NCBI GenBank assembly: GCA_022447225.1
Contig: JAKVAZ010000001.1
Span: 1 to 64,000 of the forward strand
Reading direction: 5' to 3'
Source: Fuerstiella sp.
GTDB lineage: Bacteria; Planctomycetota; Planctomycetia; Planctomycetales; Planctomycetaceae
Length of the DNA: 64,000 bases
The position numbers were made by a program, and so were the translations under genes. The notes below the pieces were generated by a model, which saw nothing but the letters and a program-made list of their open reading frames with translations, was not told the DNA's origin and ran no database searches. Below are positions 1-42,412 of this stretch, one piece after another (positions within the stretch are counted from its first letter, which is position 1; every line of letters starts with the position of its first letter).

Positions 1-696
<696 letters not shown>

Positions 697-29948: not shown

Positions 29949-31270
29949 TCACCGGCCTCCGGCCACGGACGGACTCAGGCACAGGCGGAAGCCTAGGCGG
30001 TTGTTGCGTCGGTCCGGCGTGTACCTGATGCGGAGCGCCGAGCGGCAAAGCCTGGCATTGTCGTTCCAGCTACCGCCCCGGCTCATCCGGTTCGAGCCTG
30101 ACGAAGGGCCTGTACGATCCGTGACTACTCCTCCCCCATATTCTTCTGAATACCAGTCTGAGCACCACTCCCATACATTCCCATGCATATCGAAAAGACC
30201 TTTGTCATTCGGATACAGAACGCCCACGGGATGCACCTGACATCCACTATTCTCATCGTACCACGCATATCCAGACAGCAGAGCTTCAGGATTGCCAAAG
30301 TGATAACGAGTTTCTGAACCGGCACGACACGAATACTCCCATTCAGACTCCGTCGGTAATCGGTAACCACTCAGCTCCCAAAAATTATCTCGAGCACGCA
30401 CACCCTCTCCGTACTCGCCCTCTGTATTGGGGTCATAACACCACTGAGACTCCGTAATCCCTTCCTGCTCACTTAGCCAGTTGCAGTAATGCGCTGCCTC
30501 ATACCAATCCACTTCCACCACCGGTGAGTCATCGCTGCTATCACCGGTCAATTCACGTTCATCCCGCAAGCCCACATCACTGATGAACGTGAGCCACTGG
30601 GATACCGTCACTTCTTTCGTACAAATCGCATAGTGACCGTCAAGCACGCGACGATGCAACATTTCATTATCTGAACGATTGGCTTCCGTTTCCGGAGAAC
30701 CCATCTGAAATTCCCCACCTTCAAGTACGGAAAACGTCTGCCCCTGACTGTTGATAAACCACTCGCGGACATTGTCGTCGGCAGAAAAAAACTGTGCGGC
30801 CGGCTGAGCAAGATCCGCATCAATCACAGCCAGCTGTTCCGACGCTCCCCAACGACGAAGCAACCATTCAGCCGACCCGTGAAGGCCCGCATCCGGATCG
30901 TTCCGGTAAGCATCCAGAAGTTGCTCAATCAACACCTGACGGTCTGAATCGGGTAAGTCAAACTGCCCCAGACAAAGCAGCAAAGCACGACGGATACTCA
31001 CATCCGATTCCTGTTCGTAGCGGGAAATGATCGTTTCCGCACTCACGCCGGACGGACCAAGCCGATCGATAATGTCGCTGCGAACTGTCGGATCCGGACT
31101 GTGCCTCAGTAACGGCCAAACAGAATCCGCTTTACCGTCTTTCAGCAGTTGAATCGCGGCATCAGCTTCCAACTGCTCAACGGTTCAATCTTCTCTTCCT
31201 TGACGGGTTCACCCTCGCCACAACCAACCCAGCCAACACAAAGCAGCACCACTAAAAATCGGTTTCGCAT
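29949..31270 (-). pseudogene. Lipoprotein-HEAT-SUMF1 gene interrupted by a frameshift
   Basis: The main frame (29949-31172, TTG start) encodes 407 residues. Residues 1-125 are HEAT-like helical repeats (VWPLLRHSPDPTVRSDIIDR; SIRRALLLCLGQFDLP). From about 150 a SUMF1 domain follows (LEGGEFQMGSPE, YRLPTESEWEYSCRAG, GLFDMHGNVWEWCSDWY, RGGSWNDNARLCRSALR). The first active-site Cys of true FGE is Asp here, so it cannot be a formylglycine-generating enzyme. Directly upstream, in another frame, an ATG at 31268-31270 begins an export signal (MRNRFLVVLLCVGWVGCGEG) that runs into EEKIEP and then a stop at 31142; the main frame reads VEQLEADAA from the same place. A one-base loss near 31185-31200 would join the two. 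Either the gene is broken, or the sequence has an error, or translation begins at the TTG without a signal. Confidence 0.7.
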
Positions 31271-31503: not shown

Positions 31504-32166
31504 TCACCCGGCGATTTCATGGACGTTGAAGCGTTTCGCCGTAAAGCAGCGAGTCCCGTCTTCCGTGATTCCTGCGTCCAGTACTTTGGCAATATGCGGA
31601 TGATCCATCATGGCCAGAGCCTGACGTTCGGCTTCAAACCGAGCGATCATCTGCTTGCTGTCCATCCCCGATTTGACCAGCTTCAAAGCCACCCGTCGTT
31701 TAACGGGTTCCAGCTGATCGGACATCCAAACTTCACCCATCCCGCCTTCACCCAGCTTTTGCAGCAGCTTGTACGGGCCAATCCGTTGAGACGGCTGATA
31801 ACCGCCTGCAACAGCCCCTGACGCTGCCGCCTGGGCCGGCCGGGCAGCGGAGGAGGAATTCGGCTCAATCGTGGGCAGATCTGCGGGAGAAAACAGCGAA
31901 TCCTGAATCTCAGCAAACGCTTTGCCAAACCGCGGCTGGTAATCAGCCGGAGTCACGTCATCGCCCGCAGCTCGCCGGTGATGAATGTCCAGATCGATCA
32001 GAGCTTTGAGCAGTTCGTGGTTGTTGTCGCCCGGCAGTGATTCCTGAAAGTCCTCGATCTTTGCGGACGGATCGGTTTTGAGGGCCGCTTCAAAACGATC
32101 GCAAATCGCATCAATCTGCTGCTGCAGAGAGCCAGGTGAATTGGCAGAGGCGTCGGGATCAGGCAT
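31504..32166 (-). pseudogene. Hanks-type Ser/Thr protein kinase, truncated after the N-lobe
   Basis: The 220-residue frame starts with a helical region typical of planctomycete kinases (to about residue 95) and a Pro/Ala linker. The kinase N-lobe then reads [20 protein letters not shown] (P-loop 139-147), VALKLVK (Lys162) and [28 protein letters not shown]. After residue about 205 the similarity ends abruptly: the usual hinge sequence is replaced by [16 protein letters not shown] and a stop. The catalytic HRD and DFG motifs are missing, so it cannot phosphorylate. It lies 233 bases upstream of the frameshifted SUMF1 gene on the same strand; kinases and SUMF1 proteins often sit together in this phylum, so the pair is probably a decayed locus. 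Confidence 0.75.
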
Positions 32167-32560: not shown

Positions 32561-33457
32561 GTGTGTGGAATTGTCGGCCTGCTGCTGAAGAACCGTGAAT
32601 TGCGGGAAAGTCTGGGCCAACTGGTTACACCCATGCTTGACTGCATGAGCACGCGTGGCCCGGATTCGGCAGGTCTGGCAGTGTTTCACCCGCTGCCGAA
32701 CCCGGAACAGACTCGGTTCGGTTTGTTTTCATCGTGTGCTGATTTCGACTGGCCGTCGTTTCATGACGGATTTGAACGTGACACTCAAAGTACCGGATCG
32801 ATCCGTTTCACCAAAAAACACGCGGCACAGGTTTCGTCGATTGACGTCGACACCTTCAAACAGTGGTTGAGTTCTTCTCACCCGGAGGTGGATTTAATTT
32901 CCACCGGCCATGCAATTGAAATGTACAAGGACGAGGGGACTCCAAGTGAAATTGCTGCGCGATACAACTTCCCCCAACTGACAGGCACGCATGCTGTCGG
33001 GCACACGCGAATGGCCACCGAATCGGCCGTTTCTCCGGCACACGCTCACCCCTACACGGCCGGTCAGGATTTCTGTCTGGTACACAACGGGTCGCTTTCC
33101 AACCCGTACAGCATTCGTCGCAGGCTGGAAAGCCGCGGGATTGAATTTGAAACGGACAACGATACCGAAGCAGGCTGCCGGTTTCTGGAGTGGCGAATGC
33201 GCGAAGGCGACACTCTCGAACAGGCCATTGAAACCTCGATGACAGAACTCGACGGGTTTTTCACCTTTCTGATGGCCACGGCCGATCGAATGGTTCTGGT
33301 GCGCGACGCGTTTGCCTGTAAACCGGCCGTCGTCGCCGAAACCGACGGTTACATTGCAGTGGCCTCTGAATTTCGCGCGCTGGCGCATCTTCCTGATATC
33401 AAACAGGCCGACGTTTTCGAACCGGCCCCGGAACAAATCTACTCATGGACTCTGTGA
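32561..33457 (+). CDS. mgsA: N-methylglutamate synthase subunit A (GlxB-like class II amidotransferase domain)
   Basis: A 298-residue protein resembling the amidotransferase part of glutamate synthase as a separate subunit (GlxB/MgsA). The GTG start at 32561 is followed by Cys2, the N-terminal nucleophile of class II amidotransferases (MCGIVGLLLK), with STRGPDSAG, GTHAVGHTRMATESAVSP, HAHPY and VHNGSLSNP as the other pocket motifs. In the N-methylglutamate pathway, MgsA-C move the methylamino group of gamma-glutamylmethylamide to 2-oxoglutarate, giving N-methylglutamate. Without the neighbouring gmaS and mgd genes this could be any GlxB; with them the assignment is strong. It overlaps mgsB by 13 bases. 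Confidence 0.85.
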   Translation: MCGIVGLLLKNRELRESLGQLVTPMLDCMSTRGPDSAGLAVFHPLPNPEQTRFGLFSSCADFDWPSFHDGFERDTQSTGSIRFTKKHAAQVSSIDVDTFKQWLSSSHPEVDLISTGHAIEMYKDEGTPSEIAARYNFPQLTGTHAVGHTRMATESAVSPAHAHPYTAGQDFCLVHNGSLSNPYSIRRRLESRGIEFETDNDTEAGCRFLEWRMREGDTLEQAIETSMTELDGFFTFLMATADRMVLVRDAFACKPAVVAETDGYIAVASEFRALAHLPDIKQADVFEPAPEQIYSWTL

Positions 33458-34137
33458 CGCAGCTGGATCTGTCAAAGCTGAATGTCCGTCAGGTCAATCA
33501 GATTCTGCACCACGAACTTCCCGACAGCGGAACACAGCGTGTTGAGATTCTGAATCCCGGCGGTCTGCACAGTATTGCGGCCGGACTGGACCGCGAGATC
33601 ACAGTCGACCTGCTGGGGCATGCCGGGTACTTCATCGGCGGAATGAACAAGCTGGCCACGGTCACCATCCACGGCAACGTGGGCTGGAGCGTGGCAGAAA
33701 ACATCATGTCAGGCACTGTGCGTGTGAAAGGTCATGCGTCAGAATCAGCCGGAGCATCAGGTCACGGAGGCCTCGTCGTGATCGAAGGAGATGCGTCTTC
33801 ACGGTGTGGCATTTCCATGAAAGGCTGCGACATCGTGGTGGGAGGCAGCGTCGGACATTTTTCGGCTTTCATGGCCCAGGCCGGGACACTGGTTGTTTGT
33901 GGCGACGCCGGGCCCAATATCGGTGATTCCCTGTACGAAGCAACAATCTACGTCCGCGGCAAAATTCACAGTCTGGGTGCGGATGCTCAGGAAGAAGAAA
34001 TGCAGGCGGAAGATTTTGAGCAAGTGGATCATCTGCTCACGGCGGCCGAAATTGATTGTGATTCCAAAAATTTCAGGCGTGTCGCCTCAGCTCGCAGTCT
34101 GTATCACTGGAATGCAGATGCACATCAGGAGTATTGA
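33445..34137 (+). CDS. mgsB: N-methylglutamate synthase subunit B (GlxC-like, glutamate synthase C-terminal beta-helix domain)
   Basis: A 230-residue protein corresponding to the GXGXG beta-helix domain at the C-terminus of glutamate synthase alpha subunits, here a free subunit (GlxC/MgsB). The repeating Gly-rich turns are obvious: DLLGHAGYFIGGMNK, VTIHGNVGWSVAENI, VRVKGHASESAGASG, LVVIEGDASSRCGISMKG, VVGGSVGHFSAFMAQ. In glutamate synthase this domain bridges the amidotransferase and FMN domains. The ATG at 33445 lies inside the last codons of mgsA, and its stop lies next to the start of mgsC, so all three are translationally coupled. Paired with mgsA and mgsC it should form N-methylglutamate synthase. 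Confidence 0.85.
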   Translation: MDSVTQLDLSKLNVRQVNQILHHELPDSGTQRVEILNPGGLHSIAAGLDREITVDLLGHAGYFIGGMNKLATVTIHGNVGWSVAENIMSGTVRVKGHASESAGASGHGGLVVIEGDASSRCGISMKGCDIVVGGSVGHFSAFMAQAGTLVVCGDAGPNIGDSLYEATIYVRGKIHSLGADAQEEEMQAEDFEQVDHLLTAAEIDCDSKNFRRVASARSLYHWNADAHQEY

Positions 34138-34139
34138 GT

Positions 34140-35480
34140 TTGTCCAGACCGGTTCACCGCGAAGAAAGTGCTTCAATCGATCGTCAGGCGATACGCTATA
34201 TTCGTGAAGCCGCCGAATGCGGTCTGTACGAAATCCGCGGAATGGGCGCCAAGCGGCAGGTGCCGTCATTTGATGATCTGGTGTTTCTCACTGCATCCGC
34301 CTCGCGATATCCGCTTGAGGGATACCGCGAAAAGTGCGTGGCAAAAACCGTGCTGGGAACCCGGTACGCAAAGAAACCCGTCGAACTGGAAATCCCGATC
34401 ACCATCGCCGGGATGAGTTTCGGTTCCCTGTCGGCCAATGTGAAAGAAGCATTGGGTCGTGCGGCCACTCAACTGGGAACGTCGACCACCACCGGTGACG
34501 GAGGAATGACGCCGGAAGAACGGCAGTCGTCGAAAACTTTGGTTTACCAGTGCCTGCCGTCGCGCTACGGGTTCAATCCCGATGATCTGCGCCAGGCAGA
34601 TGCGATCGAGATGGTGATTGGCCAGGGCGCCAAGCCGGGAGGCGGCGGAATGCTGCTGGGACAGAAAGTCAGTCCGCGTGTGGCAAAGATGCGCACGCTG
34701 CCGGAAGGCATTGATCAGCGTTCGGCCTGTCGGCATCCCGACTGGACCGGACCGGATGACCTGAAAATCAAACTGGAGGAATTGCGGGAAATCACCGACT
34801 GGCAGATTCCCATTTATATCAAGCTGGGTGCCACCCGAGTTCGTGACGACGTCAAACTGGCAGTCAAAGCAGGAGCAGACGTAGTGGTCATCGACGGAAT
34901 GCAGGGCGGTACGGCGGCAACCCAGCAGGTCTTTATCGAACACACCGGCATTCCCACCCTGGCCGCAGTCCCACAGGCCGTGGAAGCCCTGTCAGACATG
35001 AACGTGACGGGTGAAGTGCAGTTGATCGTTTCCGGTGGTATTCGTTCGGGGGCGGACGTGGCCAAGGCCCTGGCACTTGGCGCCGACGCGGTATCGATCG
35101 GACAGGGGGTGCTGGTGGCCCTGGGCTGCAATCACGATACATTTTCCGCCAATGGACAGGACGTGGATGCAACAGCAGACTACACCAGACTGGGCACGGC
35201 ACCGGGCTTCTGCCACCATTGCCACACCGGACAATGTCCCGTTGGAATCACCACACAGGACCCGAATCTGCAGGACCGGCTGACACCGGAGACCGGTGCC
35301 CGGCGGCTGAGCAACTATCTGCGGGTGCTCAACATGGAACTCACCACCCTGGCACGTGCCTGCGGTAAGTCCAACGTACACCATCTTGAACAGGAAGATC
35401 TGGTCGCCCTGACTGTGGAAGCCGCCGCCATGGCAAAAGTTCCACTGGCCGGCACCGATTGGATTCCAGGAGTCAAATAG
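34140..35480 (+). CDS. mgsC: N-methylglutamate synthase subunit C (GlxD-like FMN domain)
   Basis: A 446-residue FMN-binding glutamate synthase domain protein (GlxD/MgsC). Typical elements are ITIAGMSFGSLSANVKEAL, TTTGDGGMTPEE, IGQGAKPGGGGMLLG, IKLGATRVRDDVKLAVKAG, VVIDGMQGGTAATQ and SGGIRSGADVAKALALGAD. The Fe-S motif CHHCHTGQCPVGITTQDP is present, as expected for a 3Fe-4S cluster. Two TTG codons compete for the start, at 34134 and 34140; AGGAG at 34127-34131 is eight bases before the second, so I prefer 34140. The first overlaps the mgsB stop. It catalyses the synthase half-reaction with 2-oxoglutarate. A 179-base gap follows before gmaS. Confidence 0.85.
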   Translation: MSRPVHREESASIDRQAIRYIREAAECGLYEIRGMGAKRQVPSFDDLVFLTASASRYPLEGYREKCVAKTVLGTRYAKKPVELEIPITIAGMSFGSLSANVKEALGRAATQLGTSTTTGDGGMTPEERQSSKTLVYQCLPSRYGFNPDDLRQADAIEMVIGQGAKPGGGGMLLGQKVSPRVAKMRTLPEGIDQRSACRHPDWTGPDDLKIKLEELREITDWQIPIYIKLGATRVRDDVKLAVKAGADVVVIDGMQGGTAATQQVFIEHTGIPTLAAVPQAVEALSDMNVTGEVQLIVSGGIRSGADVAKALALGADAVSIGQGVLVALGCNHDTFSANGQDVDATADYTRLGTAPGFCHHCHTGQCPVGITTQDPNLQDRLTPETGARRLSNYLRVLNMELTTLARACGKSNVHHLEQEDLVALTVEAAAMAKVPLAGTDWIPGVK

Positions 35481-35659
35481 TTCAGAATCGATGATGCGGT
35501 TAGGTCTGTGGTGATCCACCGCGGCAGCCATCGCGATCTGCGGTGCGGGCCATCCGGTTGAGCGGCCCGAAACTGGCAGCACGTGACAACATAAAACGAC
35601 CGGCAACAACGGAAGGATTTGCGGCCGGCAATTTTTTTACAGATTCGGAAACCAACACC

Positions 35660-37018
35660 ATGAGTACCCGGGAACAAATTCAGGAACAGATGAAAGAGGA
35701 TGGTGTTGAATTCATCCTGGCGCAGTTTGTCGATGTCCACGGTGCCGCCAAGGTGAAGATGGTACCATCGTCGTCACTGGACGATGTACTGGACGACGGA
35801 GCCGGCTTTGCCGGTGCTGCCGTGGACGGCGTTGGGCAGGGACCGCATTCGCACGACATGATGGCCCGCATCGACCTGAACAGCTATACCCGACTTCCGT
35901 GGATGCCCAACACGGCCCGTTTTGCCACGGACCTGTATGTGGATGGCGAATCGTTTCCGTTCTGTTCCCGGACAAATCTTAAACGCGTTCTGGCTGACGT
36001 GCGCAGCAGCGGTTATGTGTTCAACGTGGGAATGGAACCGGAACATTTTCTGGTGACCCGTAATCCTGATGGATCGATTGTTCCGTGGGATCCGGACCAC
36101 GTGGATTCGCTGTCAAAACCGTGCTATGACTTCAGGTCCATGGCTCCGGCCATGGAATATCTGCAGGAACTGACGCATTCGCTCAACCAGCTGGGCTGGG
36201 GGGTGTACCAGACCGATCATGAAGATGCCAACGGACAATTCGAAGTCAACTTCGACTATCAGGATGCACTCACAACGGCCGACCGGATCACGTTTTTCAA
36301 AATGGCGACATCTCAGCTGGCAAAGAAATACGACGCCATTGCCACCCACATGCCCAAACCCTTCGGCGACCGGACCGGCAGCGGTCTGCATATTCATTTT
36401 CATCTGGCGGGTGCTGACGATGGCGGTGGCGTGTTTGAAGATCCCGCTGACCCGCGCGGCCTGGGCTGTTCCGAACTGGGCTATCATTTCGTGGGAGGTG
36501 TGCTGCATCATGCCCGCGCGCTGTGTGCCGTGACCAGTCCCACGGTGAACTGTTACAAACGTTTGCAGCTTGGTGCCGGGCTGAATTCAACACGCAGCGG
36601 ATTCACATGGACACCGGCATTCATAACGTACGGAGACAACAATCGTACTCAAATGATTCGCACGGCCGGACCTGGTCATTTCGAGGATCGCACGGTGTCG
36701 GCCGGGTGCAATCCGTACCTGGCCCTTGCCGCTTACGTGGCAGCCGGTATGGATGGAATTCAGAACAAAATTGATCCCGGAGACCCAAACCTGGGCAACA
36801 TGTACGAACGGCCACTGGAAGAAGTGCTGACACAGGGCATTCAGATCCTGCCGCAGTCACTGCACGAAGCGATTGAAGAGCTTCGCGGGGACGAAGTCAT
36901 CTGCGGCGCACTTGGTGCGATCGCTGATGAGTTCATCGATCTGAAAACCCGGGAATGGCAGACATATCACAATCAGGTGACACAGTGGGAAATTGACCGT
37001 TATCTGACGTATTTTTAA
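35660..37018 (+). CDS. gmaS: Gamma-glutamylmethylamide synthetase (glutamine synthetase type III-like)
   Basis: A 452-residue member of the glutamine synthetase superfamily, closest in pattern to GlnT/type III and GmaS. The N-terminus reads VEFILAQFVDVHGAAKVKMVP. Active-site motifs are NVGMEPEHFL (metal Glu), DHEDANGQFEVNFDY, GSGLHIHFHLA and GLNSTRSGFTWTPAFITYG with its nucleotide-binding Arg, then RTAGPGHFEDRTVSAGCNPYLALAA. In the N-methylglutamate pathway it joins methylamine to the gamma-carboxyl of glutamate at the cost of ATP. Position between mgsABC and mgdABCD is the main argument against an ordinary glutamine synthetase or a polyamine-glutamylating relative. The frame is open 39 codons upstream, but the ATG at 35660 fits the family start. 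Confidence 0.85.
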   Translation: MSTREQIQEQMKEDGVEFILAQFVDVHGAAKVKMVPSSSLDDVLDDGAGFAGAAVDGVGQGPHSHDMMARIDLNSYTRLPWMPNTARFATDLYVDGESFPFCSRTNLKRVLADVRSSGYVFNVGMEPEHFLVTRNPDGSIVPWDPDHVDSLSKPCYDFRSMAPAMEYLQELTHSLNQLGWGVYQTDHEDANGQFEVNFDYQDALTTADRITFFKMATSQLAKKYDAIATHMPKPFGDRTGSGLHIHFHLAGADDGGGVFEDPADPRGLGCSELGYHFVGGVLHHARALCAVTSPTVNCYKRLQLGAGLNSTRSGFTWTPAFITYGDNNRTQMIRTAGPGHFEDRTVSAGCNPYLALAAYVAAGMDGIQNKIDPGDPNLGNMYERPLEEVLTQGIQILPQSLHEAIEELRGDEVICGALGAIADEFIDLKTREWQTYHNQVTQWEIDRYLTYF

Positions 37019-37148
37019 GGGAACCGCAGAAGGCTGAACGTGGCCTGATCCGGGCAGCAGATCCGGACACGGCGGCGAGATCTCAACCTTCAATTCCACT
37101 CGCAGCCCTTCACTTTTTGTCCCGTTCTCCTCACCTGCTGACTCCCTC

Positions 37149-38393
37149 ATGCCTCACCGACTTCTCAGGTTTGCTCTGAACAAAAAGCATCCGGAACCAC
37201 GCATGTTTCGTGAGCCGGAGCAGCTGAAGGACGAATACGATGCGGTGATCATCGGCGGTGGAGGCCACGGGCTGGCAGCAGCCTACTACCTGGCTAAGGA
37301 TCACGGGATCACGAATGTGGCCGTGATTGAAAAGGGCTATATCGGTGGCGGAGGAACGGGGCGCAATACGGCAATCATTCGGTGCAACTATCTGACCCCG
37401 GATGGTGTTCGGTTCTATCGGCAAAGCGTTGATCTGTTTCAGGATCTCTCACGCGATCTGAATCTCAACCTGTTCTACTCTGAACGGGGACACTTTACCC
37501 TGGCCCATTCTCCGGCCTCACTGAACACACAGCGGTGGCGTGCCGAAGTGAACCGACATCTGGGAGTCAACAGCAGAGTCGTTACTCCCGATTTCATTAA
37601 AGACACGGTTCCGGAGATTGATTTGAATGTTGGCGGACATCAGGCGCCGGTGTACGGGGCGCTTTACCATCCGCCGGGAGCCATCGCCCGTCATGACGCG
37701 GTTGCCTGGGGTTATGCCCGGGGAGCCGATCAGCGAGGCGTGGAGATCCATCAGAAAACCGCGGTTTCCGATATTGAAATCCGGGACGGTGCAGTCGCCG
37801 GGGTTCACACGAACCGCGGATTCATCAAAACACGCAAAGTTCTGTCGGCAGTCGCCGGCTGGACCACCAGTATTACTCAGATGACCGGACTGCGAACACC
37901 ACTGGTCGTTCATCCGCTGCAGGCCATGGTCACCGAACCTCTGAAACCCTGGCTGAACAGCATCGTGGTTTCGGCCAGCCTGCACCTGTACGTCAGTCAG
38001 TCATCACGAGGCGAACTGGTGGCCGGCGCGTCGCTGGATCCTTATGAGCTGATCTCAATGCGGTCATCACTGGACTTTGCAGAAGGAATGAGCACCGGAT
38101 TGCTCGATCTGTTCCCCTGTCTGGGCGATGTGCGGGTGCTGCGTCAGTGGGCAGGACTCTGCGATATGACTCCCGATTTTTCGCCCATCATGGGGACCAC
38201 TCCGATCAAAGGTTTTTACATTGACGCCGGCTGGGGCACCTGGGGATTCAAAGCAACACCGGTCAGCGGCAAAACAATGGCGCATACACTGGCTCACGAT
38301 CACAATCACGAATTGATTCAGGCATTCAGTCTGTCACGATTTGAACAGTTCAATCTGGTCGGTGAAAAGGGCGCAGCCTCGGTAGGACACTGA
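37149..38393 (+). CDS. mgdA: N-methylglutamate dehydrogenase subunit A (SoxB-like FAD/FMN subunit)
   Basis: A 414-residue flavoprotein like the beta subunit of heterotetrameric sarcosine oxidase. The FAD fold is seen at YDAVIIGGGGHGLAAAYYL (30-48) and EKGYIGGGGTGRNT, and the C-terminal FAD/substrate region at WAGLCDMTPDFSPIMG and YIDAGWGTWGFKATPVSG. In SoxB the FMN is linked to a His in the segment RHDAVAWG; that segment is present with His182. It is the catalytic subunit where the N-methyl group of N-methylglutamate (rather than sarcosine, judged from neighbours) is oxidised. An alternative ATG at 37203 would shorten it by 18 residues. mgdB follows after six bases. Confidence 0.85.
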   Translation: MPHRLLRFALNKKHPEPRMFREPEQLKDEYDAVIIGGGGHGLAAAYYLAKDHGITNVAVIEKGYIGGGGTGRNTAIIRCNYLTPDGVRFYRQSVDLFQDLSRDLNLNLFYSERGHFTLAHSPASLNTQRWRAEVNRHLGVNSRVVTPDFIKDTVPEIDLNVGGHQAPVYGALYHPPGAIARHDAVAWGYARGADQRGVEIHQKTAVSDIEIRDGAVAGVHTNRGFIKTRKVLSAVAGWTTSITQMTGLRTPLVVHPLQAMVTEPLKPWLNSIVVSASLHLYVSQSSRGELVAGASLDPYELISMRSSLDFAEGMSTGLLDLFPCLGDVRVLRQWAGLCDMTPDFSPIMGTTPIKGFYIDAGWGTWGFKATPVSGKTMAHTLAHDHNHELIQAFSLSRFEQFNLVGEKGAASVGH

Positions 38394-38399
38394 TTCACC

Positions 38400-38666
38400 A
38401 TGAAAATCATCAACTGTCCACTCAACGGTCCCCGACCGCTGCAGGAATTCCACTACGGCGGAGAACTGCGGGACATGCCCGATCCGCAGGCAGCGACCGA
38501 CACCGAATGGGCCGGCTACGTGTTCAATCGCAAAGGCGAACCGGGTGTGAAACGCGAATGGTGGTATCACGTTCCTAGCGGTGTGTGGTTCATCGCCGAA
38601 CGGAACAATCAAACCGACGAATTCCTGAATACGTATCTGTTCGAAGCGGAGAACTCCGATGGATAG
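38400..38666 (+). CDS. mgdB: N-methylglutamate dehydrogenase subunit B (SoxD-like) with degenerate zinc site
   Basis: An 88-residue homologue of the delta subunit of sarcosine oxidase. The family frame is clear: NCPLNGPRPLQEFHYGGE at the start and EWAGYVFNRKGEPGVKREWW, then YHVPSGVWFIAER. In known SoxD proteins zinc is held by Cys6, Cys9, His59 and Cys63. Here the first Cys is present (Cys6) and a His remains (His57), but the second Cys is Asn9 and the last is replaced in SGVWF. The zinc site therefore looks lost or altered. It lies between mgdA (six bases) and mgdC, whose ATG overlaps its stop region by eight bases. Confidence 0.83.
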   Translation: MKIINCPLNGPRPLQEFHYGGELRDMPDPQAATDTEWAGYVFNRKGEPGVKREWWYHVPSGVWFIAERNNQTDEFLNTYLFEAENSDG

Positions 38667-41562
38667 ACGTCTGCCGCCGCGTGACGGCGAATGGATCGAT
38701 CGCACCCGGCCGGTGACGTTTCGATTCGAAGGCCGAACGTATCAGGGATTTGCCGGGGACGTGCTGTCGGCAGCCCTGTGGGCCAGTGATGTTCGGCTGC
38801 TGGGGCGCAGCTTCAAATATCATCGGCCGCGGGGAATCTGCAGCCTGGCCGGTCACGATGCCAATGTCGTGGTTGAAGATGCGTCCCGAACAAATATGCG
38901 GGGTGACCAGCTGCAGATCGAACCGGGACTTGACGTGCGTTCGGTCAATACATTCGGCGGACTGGAACGCGACCGGTTGCGGATCATGGAATGGTTCAGC
39001 CGCTTCCTGCCGGTTGGCTTTTACTACAAAGCCTTTCACACTCCGCGATGGCTGTTTCCGTTTTACGAAAACCAGATGCGAAAAGTGGCCGGTCTGGGTC
39101 GCATCAATCCGGACCACAGATCCCGACCCTCACCAAAAGACTATGCCTTCTGCGACCTGCTGGTGGTAGGCGCCGGACCGGCCGGGATGGCCGGAGCAAT
39201 CACGGCTGCGGAACACGGACTGAAAGTTGTGCTGGTTGATGAGCAGCCCAGGCCCGGCGGCAGCCTGACATGGCAGTGGAAGGGTGACGCCGCGTGCAAA
39301 GACCATCTGAACCGAATGCTGCAGCAGATTGAAGTCAGTGACAACATCGAACTGCGCTGCCGGACACAGGCCGCCGGCTGCTACGCAGACAACTGGATTG
39401 GGCTGTTCGACAATGATCGTCTGACCAAAATGCGGGCCAAAGGACTGCTGGTGGCCACCGGATGCTTTGAACAGCCGGCCGTGTTTCAGAACAACGATCT
39501 CCCGGGTGTGATGCTGGCCTCAGCTGCCCAGCGGTTAATCCATCTGTATGCGGTGAAACCGTTTGACCGGGCCGTGGTGTGCACGGCCAACAGTGACGGC
39601 TATCGGGCGGCTCTGGATCTGCACCGGGCGGGTGTTGTTGTCACGGCAGTCGTGGACCTGCGACATGAGGGCGAATCGGGCGACCTGGCACAACAGACGC
39701 ACGATGCCGGAATCGACATACGCCGCGGACAGACGGTGACCGAAGCAATCCCGGTCCGCGGTCAAAAACGCATTTGCGGAGCCCGCATCTGTCCGCTGGA
39801 CGAAAGTGGTCAGCCCATAGAACAGCAGGCAGTGCGAATGGACTGTGACGGCATCGCCGTCAGTGTGGGATGGGCCGCCAACTGCGGTCTGATTTATCAG
39901 GCCGGAGGTCGCTTCCGCTACAGTGATCGGGTGCAACAGCTGATCCCGCACACCATGCCCGACCATGTTTTTGCAGCCGGCCGGGTCAACGGTGTGTTCA
40001 GTCCCCAGGACCAGATCAAAGACGGATCGCGTGCCGGTCTGGTTGCCGCTGCCCGCATCGGTGGCTTCAGCGGACAGATCCCCGAACCACCGCTGCACGA
40101 CGCGCCTGCACCCGGTCATCCTTATCCGGTGTTTGCCCACACCGGGAAAAAGAATTTTGTTGACCTGGATGAAGATCTGCATCTGGCAGACTTCAGCAAT
40201 GCCCATCAGGAAGGGTACGACAATATCGAACTGATCAAACGCTTTACGACAGTGGGAATGGGCCCCAGCCAGGGCAAGCTGTCAAACGGCAGCGCGGTCC
40301 GAATTCTGGCTCGATTGAATGAAAAATCGATTGACGAGACGGGAACAACAACCTCACGCCCGTTTCATCAGCCGGTTCCGCTGAATCACCTGGCAGGTCG
40401 TCGGTTTCACCCGCAGCGGCGGACGCCCATGCATTCGTGGCATGTGCAGGCCGGCGGACAAATGATTCATGCGGGTGCCTGGCTCCGTCCGGAATACTAC
40501 AACTCAGGACAGAAATCTCGTGCCGACTGCATTTTCAGTGAGTCCGAAAATGTTCGACAGCGGGTGGGGCTGATCGACGTGGGAACGCTGGGTAAGCTTT
40601 GGGTCAGCGGCCCGGACGCCGTCCGCTTCCTTGAACGTCTGTACACCGGCCGATTTGCCAAACAGCCTGTGGGACGGATCCGCTACGGCGTGGCCTGCGA
40701 CGAAACCGGTGTGATCATTGAAGACGGTGTGATTGCCCGACTTGCTGATGATCGCTTTTATGTAACGGCAACCAGCAGCGGTGCGGCCGCATTCTACCGA
40801 GAAATGCAGCGCTGGGCTTTAATGTGGAACATGAATGTGACCCTGGCCAACGCAACCGGTCAGCTGGCCGCCATGAATCTTGCCGGACCGCAGTCACGCG
40901 ATGTGCTGCAGCAATTGACACAACTGGACCTGACCAGCGAAGGATTTCCGTACTCCGGAGTCCGGGAATGCAAAGTCGCCAAAACACCGGCCACGGTGAT
41001 GCGAGTCGGATTTGTGGGGGAACTGGGATTTGAGATTCACGTTCCGGCGTCCTGTGGTCTGCATGTCTGGACCGCACTGATGCAGGCCGGCCAAACGGCC
41101 GGGATTGCTCCCTTCGGTGTGGAAGCTCAGCGGCAGCTGCGTCTGGAAAAGGGACATCTGATTGTGGGTCAGGACACAGACGCCCTGACGAATCCGTACG
41201 AAGCCGATGTTGGGTGGGCGATCGGCCGCAACAAATCGTTTTTCGTCGGTTCACGCAGTCTGGACATCCTTCAGAAACAAACACAGAACCGCCAACTGGT
41301 GGGACTGAAATTTCCAGCCGACGCCGGCGACAATCTGCCGGCAGAATGTCATCTGATCATTGCCGGACAGGAAATTGCCGGACGAATCACCAGCATCGCT
41401 CCCCGTTCGACTCTTGGACATCCTGTTGCCATGGCGTTCGTGCGGCCGGATCTGGCGGAGCCGGGAACACACGTACAAATTCGCCGCGACGACGGAACAC
41501 TGGCTACCGCCCAGGTGGCCGATCTGCCGTTTTACGATCCTCAGAATACTCGACAGCAATAG
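38659..41562 (+). CDS. mgdC: N-methylglutamate dehydrogenase subunit C (SoxA-like)
   Basis: A 967-residue homologue of the alpha subunit of sarcosine oxidase. The N-terminal ferredoxin-like fold without cluster cysteines spans about 1-110 (TFRFEGRTYQGFAGDVLSAAL; RSFKYHRPRGICSLAG). A pyridine nucleotide-disulphide oxidoreductase-like domain has its first Gly-rich motif VVGAGPAGMAGA around residue 171, then LLVATGCFEQPAVF and VFAAGRVNGVFSPQDQI. The C-terminal third (about 595-960) is a GcvT-like aminomethyltransferase domain: VGLIDVGTLGKLWVSGPDAV, RVGFVGELGFEIHVP and EAQRQLRLEKGHLIVGQDTD, expected to pass the C1 unit to a tetrahydrofolate-type cofactor. Length is in the normal range. GGAG seven bases before the ATG supports the start. 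Confidence 0.87.
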   Translation: MDRRLPPRDGEWIDRTRPVTFRFEGRTYQGFAGDVLSAALWASDVRLLGRSFKYHRPRGICSLAGHDANVVVEDASRTNMRGDQLQIEPGLDVRSVNTFGGLERDRLRIMEWFSRFLPVGFYYKAFHTPRWLFPFYENQMRKVAGLGRINPDHRSRPSPKDYAFCDLLVVGAGPAGMAGAITAAEHGLKVVLVDEQPRPGGSLTWQWKGDAACKDHLNRMLQQIEVSDNIELRCRTQAAGCYADNWIGLFDNDRLTKMRAKGLLVATGCFEQPAVFQNNDLPGVMLASAAQRLIHLYAVKPFDRAVVCTANSDGYRAALDLHRAGVVVTAVVDLRHEGESGDLAQQTHDAGIDIRRGQTVTEAIPVRGQKRICGARICPLDESGQPIEQQAVRMDCDGIAVSVGWAANCGLIYQAGGRFRYSDRVQQLIPHTMPDHVFAAGRVNGVFSPQDQIKDGSRAGLVAAARIGGFSGQIPEPPLHDAPAPGHPYPVFAHTGKKNFVDLDEDLHLADFSNAHQEGYDNIELIKRFTTVGMGPSQGKLSNGSAVRILARLNEKSIDETGTTTSRPFHQPVPLNHLAGRRFHPQRRTPMHSWHVQAGGQMIHAGAWLRPEYYNSGQKSRADCIFSESENVRQRVGLIDVGTLGKLWVSGPDAVRFLERLYTGRFAKQPVGRIRYGVACDETGVIIEDGVIARLADDRFYVTATSSGAAAFYREMQRWALMWNMNVTLANATGQLAAMNLAGPQSRDVLQQLTQLDLTSEGFPYSGVRECKVAKTPATVMRVGFVGELGFEIHVPASCGLHVWTALMQAGQTAGIAPFGVEAQRQLRLEKGHLIVGQDTDALTNPYEADVGWAIGRNKSFFVGSRSLDILQKQTQNRQLVGLKFPADAGDNLPAECHLIIAGQEIAGRITSIAPRSTLGHPVAMAFVRPDLAEPGTHVQIRRDDGTLATAQVADLPFYDPQNTRQQ

Positions 41563-41728
41563 CTCACCAACCCGCCGTGATTTCACAGACACACACCCAA
41601 CCCGCCGATGTCCCAACCGTTTCACGGGTCATGACCACCCTGGCAGGACGGGCCGGGCAGGACCGACCTGGAGCCGGTCTGCTGTTCCTTCCCGTCCGGT
41701 TGGGTCATTAAGAAAGTCAGCAAAACCA

Positions 41729-42412
41729 ATGACGCCGTCCGCTGAAAATGTCGTACCGCGCAGCCCCGTCCAGGACTGGCTGGATCAACACGAAGCGCAG
41801 CAAACGACCGTGGGAGACAGCCGATTCGTGTTGCGGTTTGCGTCTGATGAAATCGAACGCTCGGCCATGGAAACCCTGGGACTTTGTGATGTCAGCGGAC
41901 TCCGCAAACTGGGTCTTAAGGGACCCGATGCACACAGGGCACTGCAGGCAGCCCGTCTGGATGTGCCACACAATATTTTTGAATCGCGTCCTCTGACGGA
42001 CGGCGGCGTTATTGTGCGTTTCGGTTCCGACGAATTCTTTCTGGAAAGTGGATTTCAGGACAAAAGTGTGCGAGCCGTCTCTGACAGCGTGGATCAGAGT
42101 CAGGGTCAGATGTTTCGCGTGGCTCACCAGGAAGCCAGCTTCCTGGTGAGCGGCTCGCGGGGGCCGGAAGTCCTTGCCCAAACCTGCGGTATCAACTTCA
42201 GCGAAGCGGTTCCTCAACAGGCCGTGTTCACACGCGTTGCCGGTGTCAGTTGCTGCATCTTACCGGACACTGTCCGGCAGGTGCTGTGTTATCGGATCTG
42301 GGTCGATCCGAGTTACGCCATGTATCTGTGGGACACACTGGTGGAGATCTGTGAAAGTCTCGACGGCCGGGTGATTGGCGCCGGCTGTCTGTTTCCGACG
42401 CTCACAGCATGA
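41729..42412 (+). CDS. mgdD: N-methylglutamate dehydrogenase subunit D (SoxG-like)
   Basis: A 227-residue protein resembling the gamma subunit of sarcosine oxidase, itself GcvT-like. Recognisable pieces are MSGLRKLGLKGPD-type text (DVSGLRKLGLKGPDAHRAL), RFGSDEFFLE, and SFLVSGSRGPEVLAQTCGINF followed by YRIWVDPSYAMYLWDTLVEI. The open frame extends 123 codons upstream across the end of mgdC, but the ATG at 41729 begins the family match. The 166-base gap from mgdC is the longest within the mgd genes and contains nothing else I can identify. This is the last gene of the eight-gene run; the convergent PSD1-type gene ends 36 bases beyond. Confidence 0.8.
   Translation: MTPSAENVVPRSPVQDWLDQHEAQQTTVGDSRFVLRFASDEIERSAMETLGLCDVSGLRKLGLKGPDAHRALQAARLDVPHNIFESRPLTDGGVIVRFGSDEFFLESGFQDKSVRAVSDSVDQSQGQMFRVAHQEASFLVSGSRGPEVLAQTCGINFSEAVPQQAVFTRVAGVSCCILPDTVRQVLCYRIWVDPSYAMYLWDTLVEICESLDGRVIGAGCLFPTLTA

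Follow-up and report, generated by a model that had tools for sequence, protein, structure and literature searches.

A 64,000-nucleotide window at the start of contig JAKVAZ010000001.1 of the planctomycete Fuerstiella sp. (assembly GCA_022447225.1) carries, on the plus strand at 32561-42412, eight genes in the order mgsA-mgsB-mgsC-gmaS-mgdA-mgdB-mgdC-mgdD. With a probability of about 0.88, these genes form a complete N-methylglutamate (NMG) pathway operon, and they very probably encode a working pathway. In this pathway, the gamma-glutamylmethylamide synthetase GmaS would combine methylamine, glutamate, and ATP into gamma-glutamylmethylamide, which MgsABC would convert to NMG. The dehydrogenase MgdABCD would then return NMG to glutamate and release the methyl carbon as formaldehyde or methylene-tetrahydrofolate. 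The methylamine nitrogen would pass to glutamate or ammonia, while the carbon could be oxidized by way of Fae, Mch, and FhcABCD, whose genes lie at other sites in the genome. Each catalytic step, the expression of the genes, and methylamine as the natural substrate are predictions from sequence. The chemistry is ordinary; the interest lies in the planctomycete host and in the changing oxidizing end of the pathway.

The eight genes, with the order and coordinates given in a preliminary description of this window, are borne out by open frames and by family profiles (Table 1), save for two of the starts proposed there. For gmaS, the ATG at 35660 is likelier than the GTG at 35543, the longer reading still being possible, and for mgdD, the ATG at 41729 is likelier than the TTG at 41360, which falls inside mgdC. 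Three gene pairs overlap (mgsA/B, mgsB/C, and mgdB/C), and the remaining gaps measure 6 to 179 bases. As the contig that holds the window is 609 kb long, the operon does not lie on a stray short contig. The catalytic motifs that had been named are also in place. MgsA begins with (V/M)CGIVG, the Cys2 amidotransferase motif; MgsC has the cysteine motif CHHCHTGQCPVG in an alignment of seven rows; MgdC contains the Pfam domains Fer2_4, SO_alpha_A3, GCV_T, and GCV_T_C, thus including the GcvT domain; and the GmaS-type active site and the MgdA histidine are described below. MgsB is 65-83% identical to its counterparts in the same-family genomes examined, and MgsC is 75-81% identical to that of the betaproteobacterial loci retrieved when named genomes were scanned. 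The gene set of the pathway, gmaS with mgsABC and mgdABCD, is therefore present in full.

Table 1. Features of the operon, its relatives, and its neighborhood. Labels beginning with L, G, and g denote loci, genomes, and genera; positions without a label refer to the window. FMN, flavin mononucleotide; Fe-S, iron-sulfur; FAD, flavin adenine dinucleotide; TSOX, heterotetrameric sarcosine oxidase.
Feature	Position	Strand	Evidence or remark
mgsA, NMG synthase subunit A, class II amidotransferase with Cys2	32561..33457	+	GATase_6 67.6 bits; VCGIVG start
mgsB, NMG synthase subunit B, GXGXG domain	33445..34137	+	PF01493 49 bits
mgsC, NMG synthase subunit C, FMN and Fe-S glutamate-synthase-like domain	34134..35480	+	Glu_synthase PF01645 331 bits
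gmaS, gamma-glutamylmethylamide synthetase, 452 aa	35660..37018	+	TIGR03105 549 bits (cut-off 470); PDB 9qur; residues; tree
mgdA, NMG dehydrogenase, SoxB-like subunit	37149..38393	+	SoxB family 469 bits; identities; tree
mgdB, SoxD-like subunit without two of the four TSOX zinc ligands	38400..38666	+	PF04267 95 bits
mgdC, SoxA-like subunit with Fer2_4, FAD, SO_alpha_A3, and GcvT folate-binding domains	38659..41562	+	TIGR01372 836 bits; Pfam
mgdD, SoxG-like subunit, 227 aa	41729..42412	+	TIGR01375 31.6 bits; PF01571 33.8 bits; position after mgdC
Single-chain oxidase genes behind gmaS, in the place of mgdABCD (genus g292)	L168:2968-4125; L169:5482-6621		
16S rRNA gene	1-696	-	truncated by the window edge; model positions 1-689
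FGE-sulfatase domain protein	29949-31172	-	weak HEAT-repeat match at the N-terminus
220-aa open reading frame	31504-32166	-	matches protein kinase domains over their first ~70 residues only

Automatic annotation names these products glutamate synthase, type III glutamate-ammonia ligase, and sarcosine oxidase. The gmaS product could accordingly be a glutamine synthetase (GS) or a polyamine glutamylator, in a cluster of glutamate synthase and sarcosine oxidase for glycine-betaine breakdown, a reading that we consider highly improbable. When GmaS is searched against PDB sequences, entry 9qur, titled ‘Glutamate--methylamine ligase’, scores 438 bits and the Rhodovulum enzyme (RhGmaS, 7cql) 333 bits, both aligned across nearly the full length, and the best GS scores 252 bits. 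Passages of PMC7948447 give the substrate-binding residues of RhGmaS and those that distinguish GmaS from GS. Among 25 such positions compared, 23 are identical in the window protein, including the catalytic D177, E186, and R312. The two features of type I GS are missing: the ammonia-site Asp is replaced by Ala48 and the flap Glu by Trp300. The GlnA model reaches 312 bits against a cut-off of 429, and the gamma-glutamylputrescine synthetase model NF045547 reaches 233 bits against 650. The genome also has a separate and stronger Gln-synt_C (PF00120) gene at C3, which speaks against gmaS as its GS; the third PF00120 gene, at C10, is weak. In a tree of proteins of 400-560 aa (89 rows, 88 of them different, one locus being entered twice), GmaS linked to mgs is set apart from four GS-like outgroup rows on long branches, as the preliminary description supposed; the polyamine glutamylator was weighed by profile score only. 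This tree excludes a Pontibacillus GS of shorter length and the third PF00120 gene, and all trees were built by a quick method with SH-aLRT as the only support.

The sarcosine oxidase part of that annotation fares no better. TSOX (PDB 2gag, 1vrq) has the same four kinds of subunit as MgdABCD, and the His of MgdA that aligns with what we take to be the FMN-linking His of sarcosine oxidase is kept (H in 43/43 rows). However, MgdA is 43% identical to the TSOX beta subunit, compared with 65-84% to its counterparts in 25 of 41 other operon loci, so that by identity it does not go with the true sarcosine oxidases. Another 13 loci, at 50-59%, are actinobacterial, in part alpha- and gammaproteobacterial, or from other planctomycetes. 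The last three, at 43-47%, are two Comamonadaceae and Aminobacter, and these are closer to TSOX (50-54%). The MgdA tree holds 42 rows of 360-520 aa with an identity of at least 40%, TSOX being compared by identity outside it. At the positions of C6, C9, H59, and C63 of the TSOX delta subunit, presumably its zinc-binding residues, MgdB has C, N, H, and a gap, and thus keeps two of the four. Two or more of these ligands are missing from MgdB of 31 of 41 other loci examined, Methyloversatilis among them, and all four are kept in 10 (the count excludes seven loci that were duplicate or partial). From the MgdA identities together with this zinc-ligand pattern, the window dehydrogenase is judged to be of the commoner NMG-linked type. 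On profile scores, the tree and residues of GmaS, and the comparison of MgdA and MgdB, the glutamine synthetase, polyamine glutamylator, and sarcosine oxidase readings were rejected.

Unlikely as well, if slightly less so, is that the operon performs the same chemistry on another small primary amine, such as ethylamine, the longer flap of GmaS marking a different pocket. The flap, from K287 to W300, spans 18 residues in 12 of 12 planctomycete rows, four more than the 14 found in all of the other 74 GmaS, and 8 or 9 residues in the four outgroup rows. At the position of Ser239, 11 of the 12 long-flap proteins have His. (The 74 include Rhodovulum and the duplicate L146, which is excluded from the residue groups.) Eleven of the planctomycete rows, the window among them, form a clade with an SH-aLRT of 100, and the twelfth is more distant. 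Against another amine stand the methylamine-pocket residues named for RhGmaS (Y147, Q175, D177, E179, E186, N188, and K30'), which are unchanged in the window protein, and the downstream MgdA and MgdB, which are of the NMG-linked type.

The genome, 97% complete, supplies genes for the predicted onward oxidation of the methyl carbon. Two fae, one mch, and a cluster with fhcB, fhcA, fhcC, and fhcD, the one-carbon oxidation genes of the tetrahydromethanopterin (H4MPT) route, are all present in the full genome, where the preliminary description proposed to look for them. The mch gene adjoins a gene resembling tetrahydromethanopterin-glutamate ligase. Methylamine would most likely serve as a nitrogen source and, by oxidation of its one-carbon unit, for energy, rather than as the sole carbon source.

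Several observations weigh against a complete NMG pathway operon acting on methylamine. All four NCBIfam models for sarcosine oxidase subunits score under their curated cut-offs (469/529, 60/117, 836/1164, and 32/144 bits), whereas the Pfam SoxD and GCV_T models pass theirs. GmaS differs from RhGmaS at W189F and S239H, is 44-51% identical to the mgs-linked GmaS of beta- and gammaproteobacteria, and has the longer flap loop; because of this low identity and the flap, its amine specificity could differ. The loci of the trees were fetched by MgsC, so that GmaS unlinked to mgs is represented by the four outgroup rows only. Aminobacter MgdA, encoded in the same gene order, is closer to TSOX (50%) than to the window protein (43%), and gene order alone therefore does not define the enzyme. 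The genus of the window lists two more genomes, both lacking MgsC. A search of the genome for formate-tetrahydrofolate ligase (PF01268) was negative, and the neighboring genes scanned include neither a methylamine transporter nor a regulator.

The operon had been put forward as an undescribed system. This does not hold, as the pathway, its parts, and its gene order are already known from Aminobacter pAM01, from plasmids, and from several phyla. Plasmid pAM01 of Aminobacter sp. MSH1 has the eight genes in an order identical to that of the window, annotated as glutamine amidotransferase, GXGXG, FMN-binding glutamate synthase, glnT, and sarcosine oxidase beta, delta, alpha, and gamma. It differs in its dehydrogenase, which belongs to another branch, and in its GmaS, which lies in an alphaproteobacterial clade. 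A metagenome-assembled genome (MAG) of Methyloversatilis (L056) likewise has all eight genes (MgsC 78%, MgdA 69%, MgdB 60%, MgdC 52%, and GmaS 46% identical to the window), and its MgdB lacks the same zinc ligands. Its order is mgdABCD-gmaS-mgsABC, unlike the mgsABC-gmaS-mgdABCD of the window, and the window GmaS is from another lineage with a longer flap. PMC3160333 includes passages on mgsABC and mgdABCD of M. universalis. In searches limited to open-access papers, we recognized no report of the NMG pathway in planctomycetes, and it is absent from the passages seen of PMC8262859, PMC7065363, PMC10994693, PMC5020050, PMC5023228, PMC3160333, and PMC7948447.

By their titles, loci of other phyla carry the pathway too. 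In the scan of named genomes, the best 80 of at least 587 confirmed MgsC matches were used as compared loci. Their MgsC is 69-84% identical to that of the window, and their titles name Pseudomonadota, Planctomycetota, Cyanobacteriota, Actinomycetota, Acidobacteriota, and Spirochaetota. Many are MAGs of uncertain binning, and the loci outside Pseudomonadota and Planctomycetota are mostly so. A plasmid search with MgsC returned 244 records. Most beta- and gammaproteobacterial loci have the order mgdABCD-gmaS-mgsABC or gmaS-mgsABC. Fourteen betaproteobacterial loci (L065, L066, L070, L072, L073, L075, L077-L080, L084, L086, L087, and L089) have gmaS-mgsABC and no close mgdABCD within the stretch; a remote match, 24-26% identical to MgdA, lies up to a few kb upstream. 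In the MgsC tree (95 rows, 360-560 aa), the window groups with other planctomycetes near a large, mostly betaproteobacterial clade. Planctomycete L057 falls inside that clade, and L071 and L090 fall outside the window's group. From these placements, more than one history is probable for the operons of planctomycetes, although several of the forks involved have a support of only 80 to 95.

Most of the planctomycete genomes sampled lack MgsC. An even sample gave a match at 1e-60 in 19 of 392 genomes; seven, the window's own included, are at least 58% identical, and the other 12 are remote. In the window's family, MgsC is found at 1e-150 in 37 of 170 species genomes and 21 of 58 genera, which rejects the operon as an oddity of one genome. 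GmaS accompanies it at 1e-100 in 35 of the 37 carriers, two having no match. In 29 carriers, gmaS follows mgsC on the same strand at a distance of no more than 700 bases; the two are on different contigs in five, and one has another arrangement. This recurrent linkage of gmaS to mgsC supports the pathway reading. MgdC is matched at 1e-60 in 26 of the 37 carriers: six at 66% or more (the window type, own included), one partial at 56%, and 19 at 40-48%. Three planctomycete loci from other families (L028, L029, and L030; MgsC 56-57% identical) have mgdB and mgdC directly after mgsABC. In L028 and L030, mgdA and gmaS come last, and they were not seen in L029; in this group, the two GmaS rows checked show Ala at the position of Gln175.

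Behind mgsABC-gmaS, the genes that would oxidize NMG differ among carriers. In the 40-48% class of MgdC, L177 has the order mgsABC-gmaS-mgdB-mgdC-mgdD-mgdA. L037 and L051 have the same order by their matches, with mgdD not identified; their MgdB keeps all four zinc ligands, and their MgdC has 21-22 cysteines. The window MgdC has 16, and five others of its type have 7-14. No match to MgdC at 1e-60 was found in 11 of the 37 carriers. These include all four carriers of genus g292, in which a gene of the monomeric sarcosine oxidase/N-methyl-L-tryptophan oxidase family directly follows gmaS. Two intact copies score 419 and 425 bits (cut-off 257), and the other two are cut by a contig end. From its position, this gene encodes a candidate single-chain flavoenzyme for NMG oxidation.

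Genus g3 also lacks MgdC at 1e-60 in four of five carriers, two of which are single-contig genomes rated 100% complete. In the two of these four that were searched to 1e-10, the only MgdC match is the size of GcvT. Loci L025 and L026 match the complete operon of G181 (g3; the L027 comparison) through the stop codon of gmaS, and the match resumes at the end of mgdD and the CDF cation-efflux gene. The ~5.2 kb present in G181 and absent from both is almost exactly mgdABCD. The CDF gene also stands behind gmaS in L165 (L165 and L166 were compared by gene order only). It was considered as a replacement for mgdABCD and rejected as a mere neighbor, as it also follows mgdD in the complete G181 operon. 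The stretches read behind gmaS in G451 and G505 contain no mgd gene and no such single-chain oxidase gene, and in G469 the contig stops after gmaS. All 15 genomes tested have a relative of the single-chain oxidase, 34-61% identical, which lies away from gmaS in 12 (less certainly in G469, owing to the contig end). The four mgd-less g3 genomes have one at 44-45% and could therefore rely on an unlinked oxidase; G181, with mgdABCD, has a homologue too.

It is possible, with the odds somewhat against it, that the family has its own lineage of the pathway, in which a fixed core of mgsABC and a longer-flap GmaS has had at least three NMG-oxidizing ends attached, including the single-chain enzyme of g292 replacing the four-subunit complex. 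In some genomes there would be none, and NMG would then be the product, as a nitrogen store or solute, or would be oxidized by an unlinked enzyme.

The surroundings of the operon in the window are of other kinds. To its left, on the opposite strand, the open reading frame with partial kinase similarity is a fragment or a short kinase-like protein, and the FGE-sulfatase domain protein lies beyond it. To its right are a PSCyt1/DUF1549/DUF1553 protein and then a DUF1501 protein.

To our knowledge, the one-carbon substrate of planctomycete H4MPT genes is unclear. That planctomycetes carry such genes is stated in passages of PMC5020050. Methylamine is not a general answer for them, because most of the sampled genomes of the family and the phylum lack MgsC. 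For the 37 of 170 family species that have the core, rather than for the phylum, methylamine is a concrete candidate for a one-carbon and nitrogen source. The exchange of the oxidizing end behind that core offers a natural experiment for learning which of the two halves of the pathway is under selection.

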